Below, in pieces: positions 7,062-12,578 of a stretch of DNA of 35,718 bases. The position numbers and the translations under genes were made by a program. The stretch comes from Rhodospirillaceae bacterium. GTDB lineage: Bacteria > Pseudomonadota > Alphaproteobacteria > UBA7985. Under the pieces are notes generated by a model, which saw only the letters and a program-made list of their open reading frames with translations, had not been told where the DNA came from and ran no database searches. The stretch lies in NCBI GenBank assembly GCA_002700865.1, contig PAFB01000067.1, positions 1 to 35,718 of the forward strand. Reading direction: 5' to 3'. Numbering within the stretch: the stretch's first letter is position 1; every line of letters starts with the position of its first letter.

Positions 7062-7162
7062 GACGGTTGACGGTCAATTTTGTCTCTGGTTAGCCTACCC
7101 CTGAAATTGCGGGAGTCGCATCCCTCTACCGACCCAATTTTTTGAGGCATCAGGTTCGAAAC

Positions 7163-10703: not shown

Positions 10704-10738
10704 CGGGGGCGAGCCATTTATGGGTTCGCCCCCGTTTT
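10704..10738 (+). terminator. Rho-independent terminator after ilvC
   Basis: CGGGGGCGA...TTCGCCCCCG followed by TTTT. Confidence 0.75.
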
Positions 10739-10802
10739 GCGTTATGGACCTTTGTTGCGCCTCGGGATTGCCAAGCTGTACGAGTCGTGTTTTCATTCAG
10801 TC

Positions 10803-10850
10803 ATGGAATTCAAAGCGGCCCTTACTGTTCTGCTTCTACCCAGCCCCTGA
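10803..10850 (+). CDS. Candidate leuA leader peptide (MEFKAALTVLLLPSP)
   Basis: 15-codon ORF plus stop with GTT CTG CTT CTA run, 150 nt upstream of leuA; stop overlaps an RNA stem arm. No clear SD; start uncertain. Confidence 0.55.
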   Translation: MEFKAALTVLLLPSP

Positions 10851-10945
10851 CGTCTCAGCCGGGCTGCGCTCCGGCATGCGATCAGGGGCCTTGAAAAACC
10901 TTCCTCCAAAATGCGACAACACGGCACCAAAGACGCGGCCTCAAG
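10843..10945 (+). promoter_or_regulatory. Candidate leuA attenuator RNA with mutually exclusive stems
   Basis: GCCCCTGA (10843-10850) pairs with TCAGGGGC (10882-10889), enclosing GCCGG/CCGGC; alternative GGCC (10887-10890) with GGCC (10937-10940) and CTTGA (10890-10894) with TCAAG (10941-10945). No U-tract seen. Confidence 0.5.
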
Positions 10946-11000
10946 ACCAACCTGACGTTGGCACGGGCGCGAGCGGACGCCGAGATCAGGACTAAGATTC

Positions 11001-12578
11001 ATGAGCATGCAGAAAACCGACGAAAACCGCGTCAAAATCTTTGACACCACCTTGCGCGATGGCGAGCAATCGCCGGGCTTTTCCATGAACCACGAGGAAA
11101 AGCTGCGGATGGCGTCAATGCTGGAAGAGCTGGGCGTCGATATCATCGAGGCTGGCTTCCCCATCGCCTCTCAGGGTGATTTCGAATCTGTACGGGCAAT
11201 CGCCAAGCAAGCCTCCGACACCGTTGCGATTGCCGGGCTGTGCCGAGCCTCGACCAAGGATATCGACCGGGCGTGGGAAGCATTGCAGTACGCGCCAAAG
11301 GCGCGGATTCATACCTTCATTTCGACCTCTCCGGTCCATATGAAATACAAGCTTCGCATGGAACCGGAAGCCGTGCTTGAGGCGATCCACAACTCCGTTT
11401 CGCACGCCGCTTCGCTGACCAACGATGTCGAATGGTCCCCTGAGGATGGCACGCGGACGGAGCCGGATTTTCTGGTCAAGTCGATTACGACAGCGGTAAA
11501 GGCCGGTGCGACCACGATTAACGTGCCGGATACGGTGGGCTATTTGGTCGCCGATGAGTATGCCGAACTGATCCGCATGCTGCTCAACTCGGTACCGGGC
11601 TTGGACAAGTGCACCATCTCCACCCACTGCCACAACGATTTGGGCGTTGCGGTTGCAAACTCGCTGGGTGGTGTTTCTGCCGGCGCGCGGCAGATCGAGT
11701 GCACGATCAACGGTATTGGCGAGCGGGCTGGTAACGCGTCGCTTGAGGAAGTCGCAATGGCCCTGCAAGTGCGCGGCGATCGCCTGCCGTACTGGACCAA
11801 CATCGACAGCACCAAGCTGCTCAGAGCGTCGCAGATGCTGCAGTCGATCACCGGCTTTTCGGTGCAGCCCAACAAAGCCATCGTCGGCGCAAACGCTTTC
11901 GCGCACGAGTCCGGTATTCATCAGGACGGTATGCTGAAGAACGCGCAGACTTATGAAATCATGACCCCGGAGAGTGTTGGCTGGACCAAAACCAATCTGG
12001 TTCTGGGCAAGCACTCTGGCCGCGCCGCTTTCCGCGATAAACTTGTGCAGCTGGGTTACGAAGACATCGGCGAGAACGCGTTCCAGGACGCTTTTGTGCG
12101 GTTCAAGGATTTGGCTGATCACAAGAAAGAAGTCACAGATGAAGACATCGTAGCGCTGGTTGACGACAGTGCCAGCGATCAGGCGGCGTCCTTCACCCTT
12201 GATGACCTGAAAATCCACTCGATTGTGCACGGTGTTGCGCGCGTTGACGTGACGGTGAGCGTGGAGGGCAAGGCTCAGACGGTCACGACGGAAGGCAACG
12301 GCGCTGTGGACGCGATCTTTAAGGGCATCAAAGACGTAACCGGTCTGCAGGATCAAAAGCTCGATCTCTATCAGGTTCACGCTGTTACTGGCGGAACAGA
12401 TGCACAGGCGAAGGTGACGGTGCGTTTGAGCCAGGAAGGCCGGACTGTGTCTGGTACGGGCGCTGATTACGATACCCTTTTTGCCTCCGCTCGGGCCTAT
12501 ATCCACGCCCTGAACAAGCTGCAAAGCTCCGAACGGCGGGTGCATGCGCATCGGGGCGGTGAGGGCGAGGCAGCCTGA
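11001..12578 (+). CDS. leuA: 2-isopropylmalate synthase
   Basis: IFDTTLRDGEQSPGFSMN, STHCHNDLGVAVANSL, NGIGERAGNASLEE, LeuA C-terminal allosteric domain. Confidence 0.96.
   Translation: MSMQKTDENRVKIFDTTLRDGEQSPGFSMNHEEKLRMASMLEELGVDIIEAGFPIASQGDFESVRAIAKQASDTVAIAGLCRASTKDIDRAWEALQYAPKARIHTFISTSPVHMKYKLRMEPEAVLEAIHNSVSHAASLTNDVEWSPEDGTRTEPDFLVKSITTAVKAGATTINVPDTVGYLVADEYAELIRMLLNSVPGLDKCTISTHCHNDLGVAVANSLGGVSAGARQIECTINGIGERAGNASLEEVAMALQVRGDRLPYWTNIDSTKLLRASQMLQSITGFSVQPNKAIVGANAFAHESGIHQDGMLKNAQTYEIMTPESVGWTKTNLVLGKHSGRAAFRDKLVQLGYEDIGENAFQDAFVRFKDLADHKKEVTDEDIVALVDDSASDQAASFTLDDLKIHSIVHGVARVDVTVSVEGKAQTVTTEGNGAVDAIFKGIKDVTGLQDQKLDLYQVHAVTGGTDAQAKVTVRLSQEGRTVSGTGADYDTLFASARAYIHALNKLQSSERRVHAHRGGEGEAA

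Follow-up and report, generated by a model that had tools for sequence, protein, structure and literature searches.

The window, by which we mean the whole 35,718-nucleotide stretch of alphaproteobacterial DNA analyzed here, carries in order miaA, the genes for the large and small subunits of acetolactate synthase, ilvC and leuA. A partial alphaproteobacterial tmRNA, truncated by the window end, lies at 1-128 on the minus strand. The features that concern us are the following:

About 10704..10738, + strand: terminator-like hairpin and T-run of ilvC, between ilvC and the leuA leader (read from sequence)
10768..10796, + strand: promoter-like element, TTGCCA (10768-10773), 17 nt, TTTCAT (10791-10796) (kept in the genus)
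10803..10850, + strand: leader ORF MEFKAALTVLLLPSP, probably leaderless (read from sequence; genus alignment)
10821..10838, + strand: proposed regulatory Leu codons CTT 10821, CTG 10830, CTT 10833 and CTA 10836 (invariant in the genus)
10843..10850, + strand: 5′ arm of hairpin P2, GCCCCTGA, which includes the final Pro codon and the stop (covariation, 95 sequences)
10858-10862 / 10871-10875, + strand: inner hairpin of P2, GCCGG/CCGGC (sequence and fold; arms largely kept in the genus)
10882..10889, + strand: 3′ arm of P2, TCAGGGGC (sequence, folds and covariation)
10890..10927, + strand: C/A-rich stretch CTTGAAAAACCTTCCTCCAAAATGCGA, mostly unpaired, no U-tract (genus alignment; centroid fold)
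10987..10996, + strand: leuA Shine-Dalgarno (SD) region CAGGACUAAG, candidate 3′ strand of a long-range helix, P1 (sequence; class-wide cognate pairing)
11001..12578, + strand: leuA, 2-isopropylmalate synthase, the proposed regulated gene (NF002087 and TIGR00973, both above cut-off; LeuA dimer domain)

A scan placed a terminator-like site at 10720-10735, within the ilvC hairpin. The leader ORF comprises 15 codons, from ATG at 10803 to TGA at 10848-10850, with the product MEFKAALTVLLLPSP; its codon run GTT CTG CTT CTA occupies 10827-10838, and an extra Leu codon, CTT, is found at 10821. An initial annotation of this DNA had described such an ORF after the ilvC terminator, and all of these elements are present. 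It had also described the end of the leader and its stop as pairing perfectly with a segment 31 nt away, around a second hairpin. This reading is confirmed by the sequence, as GCCCCTGA pairs with TCAGGGGC over 31 nt, enclosing GCCGG/CCGGC.

The same annotation remarked that the leader has no obvious SD, for which the genus suggests a likely reason. In all five genus members, an invariant TTGCCA is followed at 17-nt spacing by TTNNAT, which lies 6-7 nt 5′ of the ATG. The element falls short of the strict consensus cut-off used in the scan. Transcription is predicted to start at or next to ATG 10803. Since this predicted start falls on the ATG itself, the leader ORF may be leaderless, which would explain the missing SD.

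Conservation of the leader ORF and the stop-codon hairpin

We searched six genomes of the genus, including that of the window, and recovered a readable leuA locus in five. All five contain the leader ORF and the stop-codon hairpin (10843-10889), with the peptides MEFKAALTVLLLPSP, MEFIAALTVLLLPSP, MSFSAALTVLLLPSP, MKTGIVLSALLLLRP and MNSGMVLTALLLFRP. The reading frame, the codons CTT/CTG/CTT/CTA and both P2 arms are unchanged throughout, and the change of GTT to GTC in L003 is silent. The C/A-rich stretch CTTGAAAAACCTTCCTCCAAAATGCGA that follows P2 (10890-10927) is also highly conserved among the genus members. Upstream of the acetolactate synthase gene (7062-7162 in the window), no leader peptide is conserved across the genus, and we rejected a leucine-type leader at this site; the region is also unlike the ilvIH leaders reported for the class.

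Beyond the genus, we collected leuA loci with the leader-leuA segment as query in a DNA similarity search. As matches outside the genus cover leuA only, the resulting set of 25 loci (L002-L026, leuA identity of at least 55%) was not selected for the leader. A Leu-rich ORF ending in a stop-codon hairpin was present in 24 of these 25 alphaproteobacterial loci, with L016 as the sole exception; in L023, the element sits 5′ of an intervening ORF. A covariance model (R1) run on 387 alphaproteobacterial genomes matched 104, in a single copy each, and leuA lay downstream of every match fetched (91/91). Scanning GTDB with a nucleotide pattern yielded at least 120 loci, whose genera include, among the matches listed, Acetobacter, Gluconobacter, Komagataeibacter, Asaia and Caulobacter. 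leuA is directly 3′ in 114 of the 120 pattern matches listed, and the other six run off their contigs.

A phylum-wide sample of 398 genomes gave 79 matches, all in the same class, the sample's share of other classes not being given. One pattern match is labelled Marinimicrobia (L219). Because a 62%-identical LeuA is encoded just downstream, this is likely a mislabelled alphaproteobacterial bin. From this sample and the pattern matches listed, we rejected the idea that the element occurs outside the Alphaproteobacteria.

A Leu-rich peptide that terminates in L-(R/L)-L-x-x-P-stop is found repeatedly before leuA in the class, together with a CCCCTGA/TCAGGGG stem. Most of 64 non-redundant leaders have this terminus; Leu occupies codon -4 in all 64 and codon -6 in 60 of them, and Pro occupies codon -1 in 60. 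Such a constant peptide end could mean that the ORF encodes a functional micropeptide to which the RNA features are secondary, and the Sinorhizobium leader peptide peTrpL, named in PMC10117765, serves a function beyond attenuation. However, the beginning of the peptide differs in length and sequence among family members, and the conserved nucleotides are those that form P2 and P1, leaving this explanation very improbable.

The choice of Leu codons is also distinctive. CTT and CTA make up 48% and 13% of Leu codons in the 64 leaders and 7.2% and 1.3% in the downstream leuA genes, or 61% versus 8.5% together, a contrast that is partly selected since the model that found most later members includes the Leu-codon consensus. 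The leuA-similarity loci, found without the model, share the same rare-Leu-codon pattern. For comparison, eight ORFs of the window use CTT for 8% and CTA for 1% of their Leu codons.

In an alignment of 95 sequences, which was fitted to the covariance model and so leans towards it, 93.9% of P2 cells were paired, two-sided changes numbered 48 cells versus 8.1 in shuffles, and the covariation score was 0.221 versus 0.137. Pairing is kept with other letters, such as CCTCTAGGAC/GTCTTAGGGG in L026, GCTTAAGCG/CGCTTGAGC in L024 and CCTCTGA/TCAGAGG in L118, L126, L133 and L146. The P2 loop ranges from 15 to 53 nt among 114 family members. In 4 of the 114 (L096, L106, L117 and L123), TGG replaces the stop in the P2 arm and the stem is retained; here, the end of the ORF shifts, and the hairpin does not.

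Retention of the stem after loss of the stop is compatible with a structured site for a regulatory protein or ligand in which the ORF is incidental. A role of this kind was suggested for the actinobacterial LEU element: mutations in its Leu codons were reported to be at odds with classical attenuation, and the authors proposed a protein (PMC1262725). Against this, rare Leu codons are strongly over-represented, Leu occupies fixed codon positions, the frame is intact in all genus members, and a loop of 15 to 53 nt is unlike a ligand pocket. We therefore consider such a site improbable.

The ORF is short, and whole-leader folding in the genus of the window is no more stable than in shuffles, as might be expected of a chance ORF beside a chance hairpin. 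This explanation, to which we assign a negligible probability, is refuted by the 91/91 matches that precede leuA and contradicted by the class-wide conservation, the constant place and the covariation. Examining the leuA upstream regions of relatives, as the initial annotation had advised, thus revealed conserved Leu codons and a covarying hairpin, and confirmed that the element is real, conserved and functional-looking. Because of the conserved Leu codons, the rare-codon choice, the covarying stem and the constant place before leuA, a leucine leader peptide that controls leuA is strongly supported as a prediction from sequence.

Pairing of the Leu-codon stretch with the leuA start region

We examined how such a leader might act on leuA. 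Within 15 nt 3′ of the P2 hairpin, the longest T run is two or fewer in 90 of the 114 family members, and a scan of the plus strand from 10740 to 11000 found no terminator-like site. These findings bear out the remark in the annotation that leuA is not preceded by a U-tract, and an intrinsic terminator after P2 was rejected. The annotation had further proposed that the 3′ arm of P2 can pair instead with GGCC/TCAAG. This sequence is present at 10937-10945, but the alignment reveals that it is altered or absent in four genus relatives, and we rejected the alternative pairing as not conserved. Thus, of the classical attenuation layout, the leucine leader before leuA stands, but the competing stem is not conserved and no intrinsic terminator was found.

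As no U-tract follows P2, we sought a pairing partner for the Leu-codon stretch. The 26 nt before CCCCUGA were paired with the last 35 nt before leuA, and cognate pairs were compared with cross-genome permutations in 64 genomes. Cognate pairing gave -16.2 kcal/mol versus -12.3 kcal/mol when permuted (z -10.1). The signal persisted against dinucleotide shuffles (z -8.2), and with GC-matched partners the mean difference was -3.8 kcal/mol (s.e. 0.5). Controls were flat: leuA codons 2-20 gave z -0.9, the P2 loop z -1.3 and the P2 3′ arm z -0.3. The 26 nt immediately 5′ of this stretch likewise exceed chance in their pairing with the pre-leuA region, though more weakly (z -3.2), so the helix, P1, is not limited to the Leu-codon stretch.

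Examples are GTCCTTCG with CGAAGGAC in L063, GACTTACGCG with CGCGTAAGTC in L116, GCTGCTCCT with AGGAGCAGC in L147 and GTCCTTTCGCT with AGCGAAAGGAT in L105, all of which span the SD or the region immediately 5′ of it. The candidate helix in the window joins GUUCUG (10827-10832) to CAGGAC (10987-10992) and CUUA (10821-10824) to UAAG (10993-10996); the SD part reads GUUCUG:CAGGAC in the window and GUCCUG:CAGGAC in L003. Pairing energies in the genus of the window were not better than those of shuffles (z +0.96 for both the window and L004), so P1 is not demonstrable as a helix inside this genus and we claim it at class level only. When the whole leader is folded, its pairing with the region before leuA is seen in all four relatives and is weaker in the window.

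As candidate partners of the pre-leuA region, the P2 loop, 5′ arm and 3′ arm fared poorly, exceeding permutation barely or not at all. For the 5′ arm, pairing of CCTGACGTCTC with GAGATCAGG at the leuA SD is possible by eye in the window, but the class-wide z is only -1.8.

When we modelled a ribosome stalled at the conserved Leu, SD accessibility rose from 0.37 to 0.50 (p = 2.5e-5), and a control mask of equal size on the P2 3′ arm left it unchanged. In the window itself, modelled accessibility changed little, from 0.51 to 0.57; the rise was clearly larger in its four relatives. At class level, these models indicate that the leuA SD would be sequestered by the leader coding region.

Comparison across genomes thus reveals conservation of the end of the ORF, the Leu codons, P2 and the place before leuA, and class-wide pairing of the Leu-codon stretch with the pre-leuA region. 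The translational output that the initial annotation had offered as a fallback is favoured by this comparative evidence, since it is the leuA start region that the Leu codons pair with.

Transcription attenuation, in which P2 or a downstream structure terminates transcription unless a stalled ribosome refolds the leader, is a rival explanation. Termination could be intrinsic, or Rho could act on the unpaired C-rich stretch at 10890-10927. A Leu-codon leader with a stop-containing hairpin does look like classical leaders, the genus conserves a C/A-rich, mostly unpaired segment 3′ of P2, and untranslated leuA mRNA could add Rho polarity. However, beyond the short T runs, the lack of a terminator-like site and the loss of the suggested competing partner in relatives, the C-rich stretch is genus-specific, whereas the pairing with the leuA start is class-wide. 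We regard transcription attenuation as unlikely. The element is most likely a variant of ribosome-mediated attenuation that acts on leuA translation.

A model for leucine sensing and its relation to known leaders

A model that fits these data, to which we give a probability of roughly 0.7, is that the leuA mRNA carries a cis-acting, leucine-sensing leader that works by ribosome-mediated translational attenuation. Transcription would begin at or near ATG 10803, and the leader ORF would be translated without an SD. In the direction of control that we infer, ribosomes would pass the rare Leu codons when charged Leu-tRNA is abundant, reach the stop and leave. P2, with the stop codon inside, would then form, and the Leu-codon stretch would pair with the leuA translation start region as P1, keeping leuA translation low. 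Under a shortage of Leu-tRNA, a ribosome would stall on CTT/CTG/CTT/CTA and cover the 5′ strand of P1; the leuA SD would be freed, leuA translated and more leucine made. P2 possibly keeps the two P1 strands together.

The enterobacterial leuABCD attenuator, Rfam Leu_leader RF00512, relies on a Leu-rich peptide, ribosome stalling and an intrinsic terminator. The element described here shares its Leu-codon sensor before leuA, but not this output. Comparison with the Rfam leucine leaders, which the annotation had recommended, gave no match at the gathering threshold in 21 loci (the window and 20 diverse family loci) and none in the window at a relaxed E-value; we thus rejected membership of a known Rfam family, RF00512 included.

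Within the class, Vitreschak et al. reportedly described an alphaproteobacterial ilvIH attenuator in 2004. A figure of PMC4117421 presents transcription attenuation for the leader coding sequence of Caulobacter ilvIH (ilvL). The ilvIH attenuator is likewise a branched-chain amino-acid leader of this class, for a different gene. The Sinorhizobium meliloti trpL/rnTrpL ORF, which is leaderless (PMC10117765), resembles the present leader as an alphaproteobacterial amino-acid leader with the leaderless ORF predicted here; it differs in responding to Trp, not Leu, and in being a transcription attenuator. We found no description of an alphaproteobacterial leuA leader in the open literature searched, which did not cover Vitreschak et al. 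2004.

The closest match in working principle, likened by its published description, is the actinobacterial LEU element. LEU lies upstream of leuA and has a leader ORF with a Leu-codon run (Seliverstov et al. 2005, PMC1262725). The run pairs with the leuA SD box, a pseudoknot is conserved and no terminator is described (PMC1262725). Both systems thus have a Leu-codon leader before leuA, pairing of the run with the SD region (class-wide here) and no terminator, but LEU is described as a conserved pseudoknot, whereas the constant core here is the stop-codon hairpin CCCCUGA/UCAGGGG.

We judge the odds to be slightly better than even that these loci represent an uncatalogued, class-wide RNA family in which rare Leu codons pair with the leuA start and the stop codon lies in a covarying hairpin, that it serves two LeuA types, and that it is related to LEU by convergence or shared ancestry. 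If so, the major alphaproteobacterial regulatory RNAs would gain a widespread leucine sensor that the Rfam release searched does not contain, with carriers that would include Caulobacter and the acetic acid bacteria Gluconobacter, Acetobacter and Komagataeibacter. It would suggest that the class often regulates leucine synthesis through translation instead of the enterobacterial terminator. It would also offer an independent system for the question posed by actinobacterial LEU, whether a stalled ribosome or a protein releases the leuA SD.

In L064 and L067 (downstream of 372), the gene that follows the element encodes a LeuA of the long type (NF002991, with a score above cut-off in L064) in place of the usual short one. 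The leader therefore tracks function and not one gene lineage. L126 and L146 have a 118-aa ORF with cupin-like sequence situated between the leader and leuA; this ORF would come under the leader's control too.

Pairing of the P2 loop with the pre-leuA region, which also served as a pseudoknot check in the 64 genomes, did not stand out (z -1.3, as above), and L087 individually looks possible. The genomes of this locus, L097 and L026 are small and AT-rich; in all three, the P2 loop CTTTTGGC has a complement, GCCAAAA, downstream and might form a pseudoknot.
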